NCBI RefSeq assembly: GCF_000787815.1
Contig: NZ_BBPO01000007.1
Coordinates: 66,671 to 130,670, forward strand
DNA: 64,000 bases
Origin: Streptacidiphilus neutrinimicus
GTDB lineage: Bacteria > Actinomycetota > Actinomycetes > Streptomycetales > Streptomycetaceae
Direction of reading: 5' to 3'
Shown here in pieces: positions 6,325-58,852 of the stretch; the stretch's first letter is position 1; each line of letters opens with the position of its first letter. The notes beneath the pieces were generated by a model. It worked only from the letters and a program-made list of their open reading frames with translations. It was not told where the DNA came from and ran no database searches. Position numbers and translations under genes: made by a program.

Positions 6325-7668
6325 TCAGGCGAGGGCTTCCTCGTCGGCGAAGCCGGGCAGCCACGCGAGCAGCTCGTCACGGAAGGGGGCGGTGGCGTCC
6401 AACTGGCACAGCACCCCGATGGTGCTGAGCGTCACCCGGTGGATCAGCAGGTACGACGGGGGCAGGTTGAGCTGGCGCCCCAGCGCGTAGGCGGGCGAGC
6501 GGGGGTCCCCAACCCGCGCCGCCTGGGCCCGCATCCAACTGCGGGTGAACCGGAACTCGTCGACGGCCGCCGGCTCGATGATCGGCAACACGTAATCGAG
6601 CACTGCGTCCGCGTCCAGCTCGATGGTCGGCTTGACGAAGCCCTCCTGCCGCAGCATCTCCAGGACCCCGTTGGCATCGCCCTGCAGCGCCAGGCGCAGC
6701 GCCGTCCCTATCGGCAGCGGCAGCCCCTCGGGAAGTCGGTCGACGGTGCCGAAGTCGAGGACGCCCAACTGCCAGCCCTCCGCCGGGCCGTCGTCGACCA
6801 GCAGGCGGAAGTTGCCGGGGTGCGGATCCGCGTGGAGCAGCCCGGTGCGGGCCGGTCCCGCGAAGAGGAAACGGGCCAGCAGCCGGCCCGCCCGGTCCCG
6901 CTGCTCCTGTGTGCCGGAGGCGATGATCTCCGAGAGCGGGACGCCCTCCAGCCACTCGGTGACCAGGACCTGGTCGCCGTGGTGCACCACCGCCGGAACT
7001 CTGATCTCCGGGTCGTCGGCGAATTCCTCGGCGTGGATGTCCTGGGACTCGGCCTCCAGCGCGTAGTCGAGTTCCTCCGTGATGCGGTTGCGCAGCTCCG
7101 CGATCAGCGGCTTGACGTCCAGGCCCGGGATCAGCGGGCCGATCAGCCTGGCCACTCGGCTCAGCTGGGTGAGGTCCGAGAGCAGGGCGTCGCCCGCACC
7201 CGGATACTGGACCTTGACGGCCACCTCGCGTCCGTCGTGCCAGACCGCCCGGTGGACCTGGCCGATCGAAGCGGCCGCAGCCGGCTTGTCCTCGAAGGAG
7301 ACGAACAGATCCGGCCAGTCGGGCCCGAGCCGCTCGGCCAGGGCGCTGTGCACGGAGGCGGCAGGCATCGGCGGCGCGGCCTCCTGGAGCTTGGTGAGGG
7401 CCGCCCGGTACGGGCCCGCCACCTCCTCCGGCAGGGCGGCCTCGAACACGGACAGCGCCTGTCCGAACTTCATGGCTCCGCCCTTGAGTTCGCCGAGCAC
7501 CTTGAACAGTTGGTCGGCGGTGCGCTGCTGCAGCTCTGCCGCCACCTCGTCAGCGGGCCGGCCGCCGATGCGCTTGCCGAGGCCGAGAGTGGCGCGTCCG
7601 GCTATCCCCAGCGGCAGGGCAGCGAGTTTCGCCGTGCGGGTCACTGCCTTGCGTGGAAGATCGCTCAC
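6325..7668 (-). CDS. ABC1/AarF (UbiB-type) atypical kinase
   Basis: This 447-aa protein is a UbiB-family atypical kinase. The family hallmark K-x-G-Q motif is visible as KFGQ at residues 67-70, the AAAS-type nucleotide loop follows (ASIGQVHRA, about 132), then the VAVKVQYPG lysine, the HADPHPGN catalytic loop and the DFG motif (LDFGTVD). Members act on or near lipid or quinone metabolism and have ATPase activity; the substrate here is unknown, and actinobacteria use menaquinone rather than ubiquinone. Its position next to whiB7 matches Mycobacterium Rv3197. It lacks the C-terminal membrane helices of E. coli UbiB. Confidence 0.9.
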   Translation of the reverse strand: MSDLPRKAVTRTAKLAALPLGIAGRATLGLGKRIGGRPADEVAAELQQRTADQLFKVLGELKGGAMKFGQALSVFEAALPEEVAGPYRAALTKLQEAAPPMPAASVHSALAERLGPDWPDLFVSFEDKPAAAASIGQVHRAVWHDGREVAVKVQYPGAGDALLSDLTQLSRVARLIGPLIPGLDVKPLIAELRNRITEELDYALEAESQDIHAEEFADDPEIRVPAVVHHGDQVLVTEWLEGVPLSEIIASGTQEQRDRAGRLLARFLFAGPARTGLLHADPHPGNFRLLVDDGPAEGWQLGVLDFGTVDRLPEGLPLPIGTALRLALQGDANGVLEMLRQEGFVKPTIELDADAVLDYVLPIIEPAAVDEFRFTRSWMRAQAARVGDPRSPAYALGRQLNLPPSYLLIHRVTLSTIGVLCQLDATAPFRDELLAWLPGFADEEALA

Positions 7669-7755
7669 GGATGCCTCCCTGCTCCGTGGACGCGCTTCGG
7701 GCCGTGGGCCCGGGCGGATCCTCGTCCGGTGCGTGTGTGGTGCGTGCGGCTGAGC

Positions 7756-8802
7756 TCATTCTGCCCCGGGTTGCCAGCAGCAGCCGCAATCGGGGTGCGC
7801 CTCCAGCGACCGGCGGCGCATCGAGCCGTCGACCATGGAGATGTCGACCCACCCGCCCAGGCTAGGCGGTGCCGCACCGTCCAGGTAGATCAGCGCGTGC
7901 AGCGCCGCGGTGGACGCGACCGTGGCCGCCAGGGTGGCGTCGCAGGCGCCCGGCGCGGGCCGGCCGCTGCAGTGCTGAGCCAGGAGCAGCGGCCAGCTCG
8001 GGTCCTGCTCGGCGCGTCGGCAGGACAGGCAGCGCCCGCACGGGCTGTTGCCTGGCAGGACCAGCGGCCCCACCGAACCGGTCGTCTCCACCACACCCGC
8101 GTACAGGTGGGGGAGCCCGGCCTGCACCAGCGCCTGCCCGAGCTCCGGATCGGGCAGGCCGCGCGGCGCCACCACGACGAGATCGGGGAGCCCCTGGGCG
8201 GCGGCCGTCTCGTCGGGCCGCCAGGGCGCTGCGCGGCGGACGGCCGCCTTGGCCGCGTCGGTCCGCAGCCGGCCAGTGTCGTCGGGGCGCAGCCCCGCCG
8301 GCGAGGCGTCCTCGGGCCGTACTCGGCCCGCGTCGCGCACGCGGACCCTCCCCACCCCGGCTGCTGCGAGCAGCGAGGCGACCGCCGCCCCGACCCGCCC
8401 GGCCCCGCGCACCTCGACCCGGACCTCCCGGCGGGCGAGCAGAGCGGCTGGCGCCGCGCCGGGACCGGGCCGGGCGAGCGAGAGGGCGGCCAGATCCGGT
8501 GCCAGCCTCGCCCGCTCTTCGGGCGGAAGGGCCAGCAGCGGCCGGTGGGCGGCGCTGTCGTCGAGGGCGTCGCAGGCGAGCAGCTCCTCCAGCAGCTCGT
8601 CGACGCGCTCGGGGCCGATGCCCAGGCGAGCCGCCTCGCCCGGCAGCGCGGCCAGTTCCCTCGTGCCGTCCAGCAGGTCCAGGAACCGCACCTCGTCGGG
8701 CGCGGCCGCCACCGTGCCGCCGTGCCGGGAGTCGAGGCCGAACTGCAGCGTCTCCCGGTCGCGCCAGGCGCGGTGCAGAGCGGGCTTGAGACAGGGGCGC
8801 AT
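7756..8802 (-). CDS. ThiF/E1-like adenylyltransferase fold protein, degenerate
   Basis: This 348-aa protein resembles the ThiF/MoeB/E1 superfamily: a Rossmann-like segment around VEVRGAGRVGAAVASLLAAAG (about 140-160) and a C-terminal zinc-type cysteine pattern (CGRCLSCRR, later CGCC). The nucleotide loop is degenerate (GAGRVG rather than GxGGxG), and the N-terminal 100 residues look like the helical leader-binding domains found in this group. No peptide-modification genes are nearby, so a role in RiPP maturation is not supported. The start at 8802 has a GGAG about 9 nt upstream; an earlier ATG at 8853 has only a weak site. It sits in the same conserved block as in other streptomycetes. Confidence 0.75.
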   Translation of the reverse strand: MRPCLKPALHRAWRDRETLQFGLDSRHGGTVAAAPDEVRFLDLLDGTRELAALPGEAARLGIGPERVDELLEELLACDALDDSAAHRPLLALPPEERARLAPDLAALSLARPGPGAAPAALLARREVRVEVRGAGRVGAAVASLLAAAGVGRVRVRDAGRVRPEDASPAGLRPDDTGRLRTDAAKAAVRRAAPWRPDETAAAQGLPDLVVVAPRGLPDPELGQALVQAGLPHLYAGVVETTGSVGPLVLPGNSPCGRCLSCRRAEQDPSWPLLLAQHCSGRPAPGACDATLAATVASTAALHALIYLDGAAPPSLGGWVDISMVDGSMRRRSLEAHPDCGCCWQPGAE

Positions 8803-9050
8803 CGACGTCTCCGTTCCGAGCGGGGGTCCTGCCGGATCTGACGCGCTCAGCATGCACCTGAGGCGGAAAACATGCGCAAAGTTATCCACAGGGCTGTGGA
8901 TATGGTCTGATGATCGCTCAAATCCGCTGTGAGTTGGTCCGACTTTGGCGCGAATCCGCCCTATTCCCACCGTCGCGACGACCACCCGAAGGGAGAAATT
9001 CAGCCAATGGGTGGGGACTTTTGTCGGTCCCGGCAGGTAGCGTCTTCGAC

Positions 9051-51333: not shown

Positions 51334-52794
51334 ATGCCTTCCCTGAACGAGCTGGTGCGCCACCACACCTCGCTGGAACCCGCCGACGTGGAGTGGATCC
51401 ACCTGCTCATCTCCGAATGGCAGCTGCTGTCGGACCTGTCCTTCGCCGACCTCGTGCTCTGGGTCCCGACCCGGGACGGCACCCGCTACGTCTCCCTCGC
51501 CCAGATGCGACCCAACACCGGCCCGACCTCCTACCAGGACGACATGGTCGGCCACCTCGTGCCGCGCGGCCGCAGACCGCTGCTGGACATGGCGCTCGAC
51601 GAGGGCAGGATCGTCCGGGAGGGTGACCCCGAGTGGCGCGAGGACGTACCCGTTCGGGTGGAGTCGATCCCGGTGCGCCGGGAGGGACGCATCCTCGGAG
51701 TGATCGCCCGCAACACCAACCTGCTGACCGTGCGCACCCCCAGCCGGCTGGAGCTCACCTACCTGCAGAGCGCCTCCGACCTGGCCCAGATGATCGCCAA
51801 CGGCACCTTCCCCTTCCCGGGGGAGCAGGTGGACATGGACGCCTCGCCGCGCGCCGGCGACGGCCTGATCCGGCTCGACGCCGACGGCGTCGTCACCTAC
51901 GCCAGCCCCAACGCGCTCTCCGCCTACCATCGGCTCGGCCTCAACTCCGACCTGGTCGGACTGAACCTCGGCAAGACCACCGCCGACCTGATCCCGCCCA
52001 CCCGCGGCCCGGTCGACGAGGCGCTGGTCAAACTGGCCAGCGGCTGGGCGCCGCGGCAGACCGAGATCGAGCACCCCGAGGCCGTGGTCCAGCTGCGCAC
52101 CATCCCGCTCAAGCCCAAGGGCGAGACCATCGGCTCGCTGGTGCTGCTGCGCGACGTCACCGAGCTGCGCCGCCGCGAGCGCGAGCTGATGACCAAGGAC
52201 GCCACGATCCGCGAGATCCACCACCGGGTCAAGAACAACCTGCAGACCGTCGCCGCGCTGCTGCGCCTCCAGTCCCGCCGGATGGACTCGGACCCCGCGC
52301 GCGCCGCCCTCGACGAGGCGGTGCGCCGCGTCGGCTCGATCGCGATCGTGCACGAGACGCTGTCGATGGCCCTGGACGAGCGGGTCGCCTTCGACGAGAT
52401 CGCCGACCGGGTGCTGGCCATGGTGATGGAGCTCTCACCGGACGGCCGGGTGACCGCGCGCCGCGACGGCAGCTTCGGGATCCTCTCCGCGGAGGTGGCG
52501 ACGCCGCTGTCCATGATCCTCACGGAGATCCTGCAGAACGCGCTCGAGCACGCCTACGGCCCGAAGAGCGGCGGGGTGGTCCGGGTGGCGGCCCGCAGGG
52601 AGGACGGTGTGCTGCACATCACGGTCACCGACGACGGCTCCGGACTGCCCGAGGGCTTCGACCCGCAGACCGCGGGAAACCTGGGCCTCCAGATCGTCCG
52701 TACCCTGGCCGCAGGGGAGTTGGGCGGGAGCTTCGACATGAGGCCCGCGCCGCACGGCGGAACCGAGGTCGTCCTCGAAATCCCGTTTGGCTGA
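51334..52794 (+). CDS. PdtaS-like sensor histidine kinase
   Basis: The 486-aa cytosolic kinase has an N-terminal GAF-like domain (about 1-150), a PAS domain (about 175-280) and a HisKA_2/HWE-type kinase core with the phospho-acceptor motif IREIHHRVKNNLQTVAALLRL and an ATPase domain (N box LTEILQNALEHAYG, G boxes TDDGSGLP and GNLGLQIV). It is the orthologue of PdtaS (Rv3220c), which signals to an ANTAR response regulator encoded elsewhere. PdtaS lies next to whiB1 in Mycobacterium; here the Pls-type gene comes between. TACCCT 6 nt before the ATG suggests a leaderless mRNA. Confidence 0.9.
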   Translation: MPSLNELVRHHTSLEPADVEWIHLLISEWQLLSDLSFADLVLWVPTRDGTRYVSLAQMRPNTGPTSYQDDMVGHLVPRGRRPLLDMALDEGRIVREGDPEWREDVPVRVESIPVRREGRILGVIARNTNLLTVRTPSRLELTYLQSASDLAQMIANGTFPFPGEQVDMDASPRAGDGLIRLDADGVVTYASPNALSAYHRLGLNSDLVGLNLGKTTADLIPPTRGPVDEALVKLASGWAPRQTEIEHPEAVVQLRTIPLKPKGETIGSLVLLRDVTELRRRERELMTKDATIREIHHRVKNNLQTVAALLRLQSRRMDSDPARAALDEAVRRVGSIAIVHETLSMALDERVAFDEIADRVLAMVMELSPDGRVTARRDGSFGILSAEVATPLSMILTEILQNALEHAYGPKSGGVVRVAARREDGVLHITVTDDGSGLPEGFDPQTAGNLGLQIVRTLAAGELGGSFDMRPAPHGGTEVVLEIPFG

Positions 52795-52938
52795 CTGTAG
52801 GTCTGTTTTTACCAGTTACACACCCGAAGGGCGACAACCCCAAGGGATGCTGGCTCGTCTTCAGTCCCGGACGCCACAAGCGCAGCTCATGGCGCCGAGC
52901 AGGACCACCCCTACCCGACGCCCGGCGAGAAAACCCAA

Positions 52939-55900
52939 GTGGATCAAGAGAACTTCATCGCGCCCACCCACCCCACCGTCTCAGGCGGGGGAGTCATTAC
53001 GGCTCCGGCGTGGCAGCAGCCCGGCGCGACCCGGACCGCCGGACCGGACTGGTCCGGCGGAGCGGTCTGGCCGACGGCCGACCCGGCTCCGGCCCGCACG
53101 CTGCTGGACATCCTCGACGAGACCGCCTGGCGTCACCCCGACGCCCCGGCCCTCGACACCGGTACCGCCGTCCTCTCCTACCGGCAGTTGCTCCACGCCG
53201 TGGGCAACCTCGCGGCCGAGCTGGCGGACTACGGCATCGGACCCGGCGACCGCGTCGGCGTCCGCGTGCCCAGCGGCACCCCCGAGCTCTACCTCGGCAT
53301 CCTCGGTGTGCTGCGCGCCGGCGCGGCCTACGTCCCCGTGGACGTGGACGACCCGGACGAGCGCGCCGAGATGATCTGGACCGACGCCGGGGTCTGCGCC
53401 ATCGTCGGCGCAGGTCTGTCCGTCGTCGCCGGACCCAGCCCCACCGGCGGGGAGCCCGGCGCGGCACGCGTCACCGACGACGCCTGGATCATCTTCACCT
53501 CCGGCACCACCGGCCGGCCCAAGGGCGTGGCCGTCACCCACCGCAGCGCCGCCGCCTTCGTCGACGCCGAGGCCCGGCTGTTCCTGCGCCAGGCGCCGCT
53601 CGGCCCCGGCGACCGGGTGCTGGCCGGCCTCTCTGTGGCCTTCGACGCCTCCTGCGAAGAGATGTGGCTGGCCTGGCGCCACGGCGCGTGCCTGGTGCCC
53701 GCGCCGCGCTCGCTGGTCAAGGCCGGCACCGACCTCGGCCCTTGGCTGGTCGAGCGCGGTATCACCGTCGTCTCCACCGTGCCCACCCTGGTCGCGCTCT
53801 GGCCCGAGGAGGCGCTGGACCAGGTCCGGCTGCTGATCGTCGGCGGCGAGGCCTGCCCGCCCGAGCTCGTCGAGCGCCTGGCCGTCTCCGGCCGCGAGTT
53901 CTGGAACACCTACGGACCCACCGAGGCCACCGTCGTCGCCTGCGCCTCGCTGATGCGCGCGGGCGAGCCGGTGCGCATCGGCGCGCCGCTCGACGGCTGG
54001 GAGCTGGCCGTCGTCGGAGCCGACAACCGGCCTGTCGCCTGGGGCGAGGTCGGCGAGCTCGTCATCGGCGGCGTCGGCACCGCCCGCTACCTCGACCCCG
54101 CCAAGGACGCCGAGAAGTTCGGCGCCCAGCCCTGGCACGGGCGCCGCGAGCGCGTCTACCGCAGCGGCGACCTGGTCCGCGCCGACCCGCAGGGCCTGGT
54201 CTTCATGGGCCGCGCCGACGAGCAGGTCAAGCTCGGCGGCCGCCGGATCGAGCTCGGCGAGGTCGACGCCGCGCTGCAGGCGCTGCCGGGCGTCCGCGCC
54301 GCGGCCGCCGCGGTCAAGGAGACCCCGGCGGGCGGCCAGGTGCTGGTCGGCTACCTCGTCCCCGACGGCGGCCAGGAGCCCGAGCTGGCGGCGCTGCGCA
54401 CCCTGCTGCTCGACCGGCTGCCGCAGGCCCTGGTGCCGGTGCTGGCCGTCGTGGCGGAGCTGCCGACGCGCACCTCCGGCAAGGTCGACCGCAAGGCGCT
54501 GCCCTGGCCGCTCCCGGGCGTCGGCGCGGACGCCGGGACGGACGCCGGCGGACCGCTGCACGGCACCGCCGCGTGGCTGGGCGAGCAGTGGCAGGCCGTG
54601 CTCGGCGTGCCGGTGGGACCGGAGAGCGACTTCTTCGCCCTCGGCGGCACCAGCCTCGCCGCCGCCAAGCTCGTCTCGCTGCTGCGGCAGCGCTTCCCCG
54701 GCGCCTCGGTGGCCGACCTCTACCAGCAGCCCCGGCTGCAGTCGCTCGCCGACCACCTCGACGGCGGGGCGGTCGAGGAGGAAAAGGTCCGCGAGGTCCG
54801 GCCGGTGCCGCGCTACGTGGGCCTGTACCAGGCGCTGGTGCTCGCCGTCCTCTACACCCTGACCGGCCTGCGCTGGGTGCTGGCGCTCGCCGCGGTCGAC
54901 AACGTCATCGGGCCGCTGCCGTGGGCCCCGCACACCTCCTGGACCCTGATCGCGGGCGGCTGGGTGCTGCTGTCCAGCGCCTTCGGCCGCAGCCTCATCG
55001 GCGCGCTCGGCGCCCGCCTGCTGACGGCGGGTCTGAAGCCGGGCAGCTACCGCCGCGGCGGCTGGGCCCACCTGCGGCTGTGGACCGCCGAGCGGCTCGT
55101 CGGCATGTTCAACGTAGCCGCCGTCATCGGCACCCCGCTCGCCCGCCGCTACGCGCGCCTGCTCGGCTGCCGCGTCGGCCGCGACGTCGAGCTCCACAGC
55201 ATGCCGCCGGTCACCGGCATGGCCGTCTACGGCGACGGCTGCGCGGTGGAGACCGAGGTCGACACGGCCGGCTGGTGGCTCGACGGCGACCTGCTGCACC
55301 TGGGCACGATCCGGATCGGCAAGGGCGCCCGCGTCGGCACCCGGACCATGCTGATGCCCGGCGCCGAGATCGGCTACGACGCCGAGGTGCTGCCCGGCAG
55401 CTGCGTGCTCGGCCGTGTCCCGGCCCGCGCCCGCGTCCACGGCAGTCCGGCCGTCGCGGACGAGCGGCCGGTGCCGGAGCAGGAGGTGTGGCCCGAGCCC
55501 GCGCACCGCCGCTCCCGCCTGTGGGACCTCGCGTTCGCGGTCGCGCTGCCTGGCTTCCAGCTGCTGCCGTTGCTCTCGGCCCTGCCGGCCGGCGTGGCGC
55601 TCTGGCTGATGATCGGCAAGGACCCCTCCTATCTCGGCGTCTTCGACCGGATAGTCGTGGCCTCGGTCCCGCTGGCCCTGGTGACCACGGTCCTCTACGC
55701 GCTGGCCGTCGTGGTGACGGTCCGGCTGTTCTCCGTCCCGATCAAGCCCGGGCTGCACCCCGCCCACGGCAAGGTCGGCTTCTGCGTCTGGGCCGTCCAC
55801 AACCTGATGGGCTCGGCCCGGGTCACCCTCTTCCCCTTCTACGCCAGCCTGATGACGCCGCTGTGGCTGCGGCTGCTGGGCGCGAAGCTCGGCCGCCGGG

Positions 55901-56901
55901 TCGAGGCGTCGACCGTGATCGGCCTGCCCGGCCTGATGCGGGTCGACGACCACGCGTTCCTCGCCGACGACACGATGGTCGGCTCCTTCGCCGTCCGCGG
56001 CGGCTGGATGCGGCTCGGCGTCTCGTCGGTCGGCAAGCGCTCCTTCGTGGGCAACTCCGGCATCGTCGGCCCCGGCCGCGCGCTGCCGGACGACTCGCTG
56101 GTCGGCGTCCTCTCCGACGCGCCCCCAGCCTCCGAGCCGGGCAGCTCGTGGCTGGGCCGGCCCGGCATGCGCGTGCAGCGCGTCGTCGAGGGCGGCGACG
56201 ACACCGCCCGCACCTACGACCCGCCGCGCCGACTCGTCTGGGCCCGCGCCCTGGTGGAGCTGTGCCGCATCCTGCCGGTGCTGATCACCGTGCTGCTCGG
56301 CGACCTGGCCGCCACCGCCCTGCAGGCGCTCTTCGACTGGGACGGGCTGACGGTCTCCGCCGTCCTGGCGGGCGTGCTGCTGCTGGTGCTCGGAGTGACG
56401 GCATGTCTGATCACCACGCTGGCAAAGTGGTTGCTGGTGGGGCGCTTCCGCGAGGGGCAGAAGCCGCTGTGGAGTTCGTTCGTGTGGCGCAACGAGCTCT
56501 TCGACACCTTCGTCGAGGAGCTGGCGATGCCGTGGCTGGGCGGAACGCTCGTCGGCACGCCCTTCTTCACCCTGTGGCTGCGTAGCCTCGGCACCCGGAT
56601 CGGCCGCGGCGTGTGGTGCGAGTCGCACTGGTTCCCGGAGACGGACCTGATCGCCATCGGTGACGGAGCCACCGTCAACCGCGGTGTGGTGGTGCAGACC
56701 CACCTGTTCCACGACCGGCTGATGCGCATGGACGCCATCGAGGTGGGGGCCGGGGCGACCATCGGCCCGCACTCGATCGTGCTGCTGGGCTCGACGCTGG
56801 GGGAGGGGGCCGTGGTCGGCCCGTCCTCGCTGGTGATGCGCGGAGAGTCGGTGCCGGCGGGCAGCCGCTGGCTGGGCAACCCGGTGCGCCGCTGGGCGTA
56901 G
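52939..56901 (+). CDS. Pls/PosA-family single-module peptide synthetase, epsilon-poly-lysine synthetase-like
   Basis: The 1320-aa protein has an adenylation domain (about 45-520; A3 IIFTSGTTGRPKG at 184-196, YGPTE at 325, K515), a carrier domain (LGGTSL, phosphopantetheine Ser572), then a membrane part with six helices in three pairs (about 630-700, 862-933 and 1104-1168) that separate three acyltransferase/hexapeptide-like C-terminal domains (about 746-830, 980-1062, 1216-1320). There is no condensation or thioesterase domain. This is exactly the layout and length of Pls, which makes epsilon-poly-L-lysine by repeated condensation at the membrane. The pocket residues read DAESIGTVVK, close to a lysine code as I recall it. 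GTG start with a weak Shine-Dalgarno. Confidence 0.9.
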   Translation: MDQENFIAPTHPTVSGGGVITAPAWQQPGATRTAGPDWSGGAVWPTADPAPARTLLDILDETAWRHPDAPALDTGTAVLSYRQLLHAVGNLAAELADYGIGPGDRVGVRVPSGTPELYLGILGVLRAGAAYVPVDVDDPDERAEMIWTDAGVCAIVGAGLSVVAGPSPTGGEPGAARVTDDAWIIFTSGTTGRPKGVAVTHRSAAAFVDAEARLFLRQAPLGPGDRVLAGLSVAFDASCEEMWLAWRHGACLVPAPRSLVKAGTDLGPWLVERGITVVSTVPTLVALWPEEALDQVRLLIVGGEACPPELVERLAVSGREFWNTYGPTEATVVACASLMRAGEPVRIGAPLDGWELAVVGADNRPVAWGEVGELVIGGVGTARYLDPAKDAEKFGAQPWHGRRERVYRSGDLVRADPQGLVFMGRADEQVKLGGRRIELGEVDAALQALPGVRAAAAAVKETPAGGQVLVGYLVPDGGQEPELAALRTLLLDRLPQALVPVLAVVAELPTRTSGKVDRKALPWPLPGVGADAGTDAGGPLHGTAAWLGEQWQAVLGVPVGPESDFFALGGTSLAAAKLVSLLRQRFPGASVADLYQQPRLQSLADHLDGGAVEEEKVREVRPVPRYVGLYQALVLAVLYTLTGLRWVLALAAVDNVIGPLPWAPHTSWTLIAGGWVLLSSAFGRSLIGALGARLLTAGLKPGSYRRGGWAHLRLWTAERLVGMFNVAAVIGTPLARRYARLLGCRVGRDVELHSMPPVTGMAVYGDGCAVETEVDTAGWWLDGDLLHLGTIRIGKGARVGTRTMLMPGAEIGYDAEVLPGSCVLGRVPARARVHGSPAVADERPVPEQEVWPEPAHRRSRLWDLAFAVALPGFQLLPLLSALPAGVALWLMIGKDPSYLGVFDRIVVASVPLALVTTVLYALAVVVTVRLFSVPIKPGLHPAHGKVGFCVWAVHNLMGSARVTLFPFYASLMTPLWLRLLGAKLGRRVEASTVIGLPGLMRVDDHAFLADDTMVGSFAVRGGWMRLGVSSVGKRSFVGNSGIVGPGRALPDDSLVGVLSDAPPASEPGSSWLGRPGMRVQRVVEGGDDTARTYDPPRRLVWARALVELCRILPVLITVLLGDLAATALQALFDWDGLTVSAVLAGVLLLVLGVTACLITTLAKWLLVGRFREGQKPLWSSFVWRNELFDTFVEELAMPWLGGTLVGTPFFTLWLRSLGTRIGRGVWCESHWFPETDLIAIGDGATVNRGVVVQTHLFHDRLMRMDAIEVGAGATIGPHSIVLLGSTLGEGAVVGPSSLVMRGESVPAGSRWLGNPVRRWA

Positions 56902-57310: not shown

Positions 57311-57562
57311 TCAGGCGGTGCGGGCACGGTTGCGGGCGGCACGGCGCTTCATCGCGCGGCGCTCGTCCTCGCTCATGCCACCCCAGACACCGGCGTCCTG
57401 GCCCGTCTCCAGCGCCCACTGGAGGCAGCTCTCCATGACCGGGCAGCGACGGCACACGGCCTTCGCCTCCTCGATCTGGAGCAGCGCGGGCCCGGTGTTG
57501 CCGATCGGGAAGAAAAGCTCGGGGTCCTCTTCCCGGCAGACAGCGCGGTGGCGCCAGTCCAT
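57311..57562 (-). CDS. wblE: WhiB-family regulator WblE (WhiB1)
   Basis: The 83-aa Fe-S protein has cluster cysteines C9, C37, C40 and C46, the DAGVWGGMS turn and a basic C-terminus (RRAMKRRAARNRAR). WhiB1/WblE binds the principal sigma factor, and its cluster reacts with nitric oxide in Mycobacterium. The sequence is nearly identical to S. coelicolor WblE. ATG 57562 has GAGGAG about 10 nt upstream; a TTG 9 nt earlier is less likely. A Crp-like site lies upstream. Confidence 0.96.
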   Translation of the reverse strand: MDWRHRAVCREEDPELFFPIGNTGPALLQIEEAKAVCRRCPVMESCLQWALETGQDAGVWGGMSEDERRAMKRRAARNRARTA

Positions 57563-57895
57563 CTTGTCCAACTCCTCTAAAGGCGGGGGTGTCCCACCAG
57601 CATCAATGGCAGCTTGTGAATGTGAACGCTTTCACGAACCCGATGGCAGGCACAGGGCCGACGCATGAGTCGGCGCACGTATGCTCGCGGCGTTGCGGGT
57701 GGATTCGGGCGCCTCAGGCGGTCTCCGTTACGGACCGTCCCGATCGCCATGTAAAGGTTCGCAAACCTCGACCCGGGATACAACCCCCTTCGGGTAGGAA
57801 ATTTTGAATCGTCGGTGTCGCTTGGGTCACACCCTGTACTTCGATGGAGTGAAGCGGCGCGTGCGTTCGAGAACAAGGCCAAATGGCCCTCGCGT
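57563..57895 (-). promoter_or_regulatory. wblE upstream region with a Crp-like site
   Basis: The 333-nt gap holds no gene. TGTGAACGCTTTCACG (57621-57636) matches the Crp/Fnr consensus TGTGA-N6-TCACA at all but the last position. It lies about 60 bp before the wblE ATG. In Mycobacterium the whiB1 promoter is controlled by a cAMP-Crp protein. Further upstream the region is AT-richer than average. Confidence 0.65.
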
Positions 57896-58852
57896 TCACA
57901 CAATCACACGCAGTGCCCGAGATACGCCTGTGAAGCTGATGGTGTTCCGCTCCCCAAGGTGGTCCCCATCGACCTGGAACGGCAGCGGTTCCTGCGAATG
58001 CAAGGTGAATTCCGCGAGATCGTGGTAGGCGACCACGTGTTTGCCGTGCGGTCCTGCACCCGTGGAGTCCAGCAGCTGCGGGATCGTGCGCAGAGTCTGA
58101 ACGAGTGACATGCGGGTCATGCCGAAGAGGTCGAGGCTCGTGTCGAAACCGGCCTCCGGCGAGGCGTAGACGGGCCGGTTGCCGAGATACGTCCACGGCG
58201 AGGTGTTGGAGACTATCGACACCGCGAGGCCCGGGATCGGGTCCGCCCCGTCGCTACTGAACGTGATCGGCCCGTGGCGACGGTGTCTGCCCTCGTCGAA
58301 GAACTGCCGCCACGCCTGCCCCACGTACAGGGCGTGCGTCGATCTGCGCCCGCCGCGCCGCGCCTGCTCCACGCGGCCCACGACGCCGGCGTCGAAGCCG
58401 AAGCCGGCCGTGAAGGTGAACCAGCGGTCGGGGAGCCCCTCCCCTCCCGAGCGGCCCAGGCTGATGGACCGCTGCCGCGGGGCGCCGGGCCGGGCCAGCG
58501 CGTCGAGCAGCACACCGGTCGCCTCGACGGGGTCGTTCGGCAGACCGAGCGCGCGGGCGAAGACGTTGGTGCTGCCGCCCGGAACGATCGCCAGTGCGGG
58601 CAGGTGTTCGCCGGGGCCGTCATGGAGCAGCCCGTTGACGACCTCGTTCACCGTTCCGTCGCCGCCCAGGGCGACCACGACGTCGTGCGTGCGCTCGCGC
58701 GCCGCCTCCCGCGCGAGATCCCGCGCGTGGCCCCGGTAGCCGGTGGCGACGACGTCCAACTTGAGGTCGTGGGAGAGGGCGTGCGCGAGGACGTCTCTGG
58801 TTCGTCCACTGGTGGTGGTCGCTTTGGGATTGACGACCAGGAGCGCACGCAT
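57896..58852 (-). CDS. Diacylglycerol/sphingosine kinase-like lipid kinase
   Basis: The 318-aa protein has the DAGK catalytic signature GGDGTVNEV (about residues 63-71), the VPGGSTNVFARALG segment and the C-terminal FQVDGD motif. This family phosphorylates diacylglycerol or related lipids at the membrane face; substrate unproven. TACGCT 7 nt before the ATG suggests a leaderless mRNA. Confidence 0.92.
   Translation of the reverse strand: MRALLVVNPKATTTSGRTRDVLAHALSHDLKLDVVATGYRGHARDLAREAARERTHDVVVALGGDGTVNEVVNGLLHDGPGEHLPALAIVPGGSTNVFARALGLPNDPVEATGVLLDALARPGAPRQRSISLGRSGGEGLPDRWFTFTAGFGFDAGVVGRVEQARRGGRRSTHALYVGQAWRQFFDEGRHRRHGPITFSSDGADPIPGLAVSIVSNTSPWTYLGNRPVYASPEAGFDTSLDLFGMTRMSLVQTLRTIPQLLDSTGAGPHGKHVVAYHDLAEFTLHSQEPLPFQVDGDHLGERNTISFTGVSRALRVIV

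Follow-up and report, generated by a model that had tools for sequence, protein, structure and literature searches.

Epsilon-poly-L-lysine is a known natural antimicrobial and an industrial food preservative. In the characterised Pls enzymes, as reviewed, lysine is adenylated, loaded onto a carrier domain and joined by the C domains either to free lysine or to a chain with no covalent attachment at any stage. Build-up of the polymer is promoted by acid pH and high ATP (same review), and reviewed work has its length set by the synthetase, not by degradation. At position 2 of the adenylation (A) domain pocket, Ala goes with lysine, Met with ornithine (as in PosA) and Phe with the diaminopropionate and diaminobutyrate enzymes, whilst Glu at position 3 is essential (PMC10522769). 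A Corynebacterium Pls that shares only 51% identity with its Streptomyces counterpart, and whose pocket is reported as identical or highly similar, makes epsilon-poly-lysine (PMC8117764). The Pls family is widespread and well characterised, and the gene described here is an ordinary member of it: in keeping with an earlier remark that Pls/PosA homologues are common, Pls-family genes scored above the family cut-off in 144 of 200 sampled Streptomycetaceae.

The gene lies in a 64,000-nucleotide stretch of the Streptacidiphilus neutrinimicus genome (the window) as an intact open reading frame whose GTG start (GTGGATCAA...) is conserved among the orthologues in the genus. The product is a single module with the order A-T-(TM-C)x3, made up as follows.

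52939..56901, + strand: pls-type gene for a predicted epsilon-poly-L-lysine synthetase of the PldII-less lineage, 1320 aa (ORF, TIGR02353, pocket code, trees)
53116..54516, + strand: A domain, residues about 60-526, pocket DAESIGTVVK (Pfam; 69% identity to 7WEW over 490 aligned columns)
54574..54759, + strand: carrier (thiolation) domain, residues 546-607, with the LGGTS phosphopantetheine site (Pfam, motif)
54772..56898, + strand: C-terminal membrane/C1-C2-C3 part, residues 612-1320 (TIGR02353, hydropathy, AlphaFold model, fold and hexapeptide sequence matches)

A first-pass annotation, made from the DNA letters, had described a 1320 amino acid A-carrier-(TM pair-C domain)x3 protein lacking condensation and thioesterase domains, and Pfam, TIGR02353, hydropathy and an AlphaFold model bear this architecture out. 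Pfam identifies AMP-binding, AMP-binding_C (at 24.0 bits, marginally below the cut-off of 24.5), PP-binding and one hexapeptide repeat in the protein, and finds neither a condensation nor a thioesterase domain. The NCBIfam family TIGR02353 ('Pls/PosA family NRPS') matches residues 630-1316 with 653 bits against a cut-off of 423. The A-domain core motifs and the LGGTS serine of the carrier are retained.

The C-terminal part was modelled with AlphaFold using 48 homologues (residues 612-1320, 709 amino acids; pLDDT 87, pTM 0.89). The predicted structure comprises three units, each with long membrane-type helices followed by a parallel beta-helix. Its best matches among solved folds are hexapeptide acyltransferases (galactoside, maltose and serine acetyltransferases), with middling Z values of 6-7, each over one beta-helix unit; among the Foldseek hits, none covers the C-terminal part as a whole. 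The hexapeptide sequence matches are weak and fall in the C3 unit. Conserved polar residues are found in C1 (H753, E771, E773 and D775), C2 (E989, D1010 and D1011) and C3 (H1255, H1258 and D1259). By alignment, the S. albulus linker residue W646 corresponds to W662 here; in the K. aureofaciens protein L007 this position is occupied by Arg. The counterpart of S. albulus L883, the other published linker site, is Y898 by alignment or L899 after a one-residue shift, in a stretch that is poorly aligned, so that the two sites together give no prediction of short chains.

Ten pocket residues (D236, A237, E240, S279, I300, G302, T324, V332, V333 and K515) had been picked out by eye as lysine-like, and all ten are at those positions, reading DAESIGTVVK. 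This code goes beyond mere resemblance to the known lysine code DAESIGSVCK, being exactly that of 7WEW, the crystallised A domain of the S. albulus epsilon-poly-L-lysine synthetase, and it is common to all 83 of the nearest homologue loci, from many actinobacterial genera. The characterised Pls proteins have a pocket of this type (PMC10522769, PMC8117764). Over 117 residues around the pocket, the window protein is the same as 7WEW at 93 and as a DFE-code enzyme at 59. A tree of the A domain with characterised Pls proteins had been proposed as a check; in the maximum-likelihood tree that was built, the window sequence groups with 7WEW, apart from the DFE-code diaminopropionate/diaminobutyrate-type clade, with 100/100 support. 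Sequence comparison therefore strongly supports L-lysine as the likely substrate of the A domain. The suggestion that the gene could make epsilon-poly-lysine is supported by the pocket identity and the A-domain clade, and epsilon-linked poly-L-lysine is the product that we infer by analogy. The strongest argument is one of distance: because the 51% identical Corynebacterium enzyme makes epsilon-poly-lysine, an enzyme that is 60% identical and has an identical pocket would be expected to make it too.

The genome encodes three full TIGR02353 proteins, on contigs C178 (the window gene), C140 and C164, all bearing the lysine code. Only the C164 copy has a PldII-type M1 peptidase gene after it; the window and C140 copies are without one, and no M1 peptidase gene was found at the window locus. 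Elsewhere in the genome, away from all three Pls loci, is a gene for another M1 peptidase (G000:C86:9099-10367, L234), which has 37% identity to PldII. Directly downstream of the C140 copy (L144) are genes for a PAS-SpoIIE phosphatase (7405-8904, - strand) and a mycothiol-S-transferase-like protein (6824-7384, - strand).

Three lineages are seen in a tree of full-length Pls proteins. The S. albulus type, in which the PldII neighbour is more distant, forms one, and a pan-actinobacterial PldII-linked type that includes the C164 copy forms another. The window protein and the C140 copy belong to the third, a Streptomycetaceae lineage in which PldII is absent except at L010 and L016; because these two branch near its base, the tree suggests that PldII was lost within the lineage. 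L007, L015 and L033 are near contig ends, so that the absence of PldII there is weak evidence, and L015 (Pseudonocardia) is without PldII yet falls outside the window lineage. Second copies from the same genus, such as that on C140, branch between the same-locus copies, and duplication or exchange within the genus must therefore also have occurred. Six loci in three genomes (L114, L124, L125, L142, L198 and L199; G027, G022 and G021) carry TIGR02353 in frames of ~900 amino acids without an A domain of their own; next to L198 and L199 lies a distinct NRPS-like ORF that has A and carrier parts, making up a split Pls-like system.

The window gene and its possible promoter are set between genes that are conserved in the family.

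51334..52794, + strand: PdtaS-type sensor histidine kinase, upstream flank (Pfam GAF_PdtaS, HisKA_2)
52836..52859, + strand: possible ECF-sigma-type promoter AACC-N16-CGTC upstream of pls (same spacing in six orthologues in the genus, the window included)
57311..57571, - strand: WhiB-family regulator, downstream flank, start codon uncertain (Pfam Whib on 57317-57631, gene call, empty-site comparison)
57896..58852, - strand: diacylglycerol-kinase (DAGK)-family protein, next conserved flank gene (Pfam DAGK_cat)

The PdtaS-type kinase is present as one copy in each of 61 family genomes. At all 22 loci examined in other Streptomycetaceae genera, the genes directly after it are whiB and the DAGK-family gene, in convergent orientation, whereas within the genus a Pls gene lies 3' of the kinase at all eight loci examined from the kinase side; of the PldII-less Pls loci of the genus that were examined from the other side, most have whiB and DAGK. 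Given this contrast between empty and occupied sites, the insertion of pls into this conserved core neighbourhood most likely predates the radiation of the genus, and the gene has stayed there.

The possible promoter is part of a block between the kinase gene and pls that is conserved in six orthologues. It may be of the ECF-sigma type, judging by its sequence, although the six sequences that carry it are close relatives and not independent observations. Upstream of 94 other Pls loci, the AACC-N16-CGTC pattern is found at seven beyond the five closest orthologues, which is about the background rate (4.9% of random 420-bp stretches), and the element is therefore specific to the closest orthologues. 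Separate regulation of the window gene, with an ECF sigma factor as one possible agent, is conjecture. A consensus scan found neither sigma-70 promoters nor intrinsic terminators. A second conserved block (TTTTTACCAGTTACACACC; about 52805-52827) lies upstream of the possible promoter, is largely kept in all six close orthologues and is a possible operator.

Taken together, the results indicate that the product is very probably an epsilon-poly-L-lysine synthetase, NRPS-like, membrane-bound and of a single module, and that the gene is a PldII-less paralogue which its genus has fixed between pdtaS and whiB. The analysis itself shows the architecture, the pocket, the clade, the retained motifs and the purifying selection; catalysis, linkage, release and an antimicrobial role would follow from the characterised Pls enzymes. 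By that analogy, the A domain would adenylate L-lysine, with Glu240 placed for the side-chain amine, Asp236 for the alpha-amine and the small Ala237 leaving space for the long side chain. The carrier domain would then be loaded with lysine, and the three C domains (hexapeptide-acyltransferase-like beta-helices between membrane helices) would iteratively join lysine via its epsilon-amine to free lysine or a growing chain, which would finally be let go.

In favour of this reading, 368 of 383 columns that are nearly invariant among PldII-linked Pls proteins are kept (96%), and dN/dS, measured against five orthologues, is 0.13-0.23 for the gene as a whole and stays under 0.25 in the A and C parts alike; the protein is therefore maintained. 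Against it, the protein departs from the nearly invariant residue at 15 positions, nine being in the C part (G1005H and E1018A, for example), although these sites also vary within the lineage of the window protein. The usual operon partner PldII is also absent beside the gene, although the peptidase is no part of the synthetase and catalysis does not require it. The split from the S. albulus enzyme in the full-length tree is deep, with the root placed by a single long outgroup row.

The presence of two further lysine-code Pls genes in the genome raises the question of whether the window copy is simply a duplicate of the PldII-linked gene that has fallen silent or is decaying, and in the same genus several Pls frames do look broken (L150/L110 in G001, L161/L162 in G013 and L098 in G012), which may reflect sequencing errors or real decay. 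The window frame is intact, however, its dN/dS and its retention of nearly invariant sites are those of a maintained gene, and it occupies the same position throughout the genus; nor is it a recent duplicate, its identity to the PldII-linked copy being just 57%. We regard decay as very improbable. Polymerisation of a different diamino acid (ornithine, diaminobutyrate, diaminopropionate or beta-lysine) is also very improbable. The degeneracy of pocket codes speaks for it, as does the roughly tenfold rise in lysine activation brought about by M218A in PosA (PMC10522769), but the window pocket and its surroundings match 7WEW and differ from the DFE-code and DMEHNGTVSK pockets, and the tree excludes the DFE clade. 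No gene for lysine 2,3-aminomutase or diamino-acid biosynthesis was found among the flanking genes tested (PdtaS kinase, solute-binding proteins, WhiB, DAGK-family protein and sigma factor; two small neighbours have no Pfam match), which also counts against an epsilon-poly-beta-lysine synthetase.

A reading that refines the epsilon-poly-L-lysine assignment, and does not exclude it, is that the polymer is of unusual length or fate, being short-chain or retained by the cell, so that no degrader is needed and PldII was lost from the lineage. The lineage without PldII forms a coherent group that is under purifying selection, and K. aureofaciens has two genes of this lineage together with one PldII-linked gene and is a reported producer of short chains. 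On the other hand, its short-chain enzyme, AZL89021.1, may correspond to any of the three genes, PldII loss leaves chain length unchanged in reviewed work, the window protein has Trp at the position of W646, where mutation shortens chains, and the PldII encoded at C164 could serve all three copies. We consider this refinement possible but doubtful.

What is modestly new is a PldII-less lineage fixed at one locus in an acidophile genus, accompanied by one or two further Pls genes with the lysine code. Streptacidiphilus grows at pH 3.5-6.5 according to the genus literature, a circumstantial fit with poly-lysine accumulation needing acidic pH. The poly-lysine potential of the genus apparently went unremarked in a 2020 Streptacidiphilus genome-mining paper, since the word 'lysine' is absent from its main text. 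More speculatively, and we think this unlikely, the genus may have a fixed, separately controlled, PldII-free synthetase making a polymer unlike classical epsilon-poly-lysine in its length or fate. If so, the polymer might be, for example, a protective coat on an acid-exposed cell surface and not a released antibiotic, and one cell would run two or three lysine polymerases with different jobs. The Pls lineages share one lysine pocket with C-terminal parts that are only about 50-60% identical, and so offer natural material for asking what determines chain length, whilst a three-Pls genome in an acid-growing genus would make the biological role of the polymer approachable through single and multiple knockouts.

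Among known systems, the S. albulus Pls (7WEW) resembles the window protein in domain order, length, the ten-residue pocket and W646, with A domains that are 69% identical; as differences, full-length identity between the window protein and the S. albulus-type gene L020 is ~60%, and the window protein is of a separate lineage and encoded at a different locus without an adjacent pldII. The PldII-linked Pls of the same genome (G000 contig C164, L001/L145) has the same pocket and architecture but is 57% identical and has the PldII-type M1 peptidase gene 3' of it. PldII-less Pls proteins of Kitasatospora and Streptomyces (L007, L008, L009, L012, L013, L014 and L017) share the lineage and pocket of the window protein and are 64-70% identical to it, but are encoded at other loci, none with the WhiB/DAGK flanks, and PldII was not found nearby. 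PosA of Acinetobacter baumannii, a delta-poly-L-ornithine synthetase, is alike in enzyme class and architecture, but its DMEHNGTVSK pocket has Met at the length-sensing position (PMC10522769), where the window protein has Ala237 within DAESIGTVVK, which argues against a PosA-type identity. The synthetases of the PDAP/PDAB type (DFE... codes; L193-L197, assigned by code only) belong to the same TIGR02353 architecture family but are about 35% identical to the window protein and form their own clade (100/100); the window protein lacks Phe at pocket position 2 and falls outside that clade, which argues against a poly-diaminopropionate or poly-diaminobutyrate synthetase.
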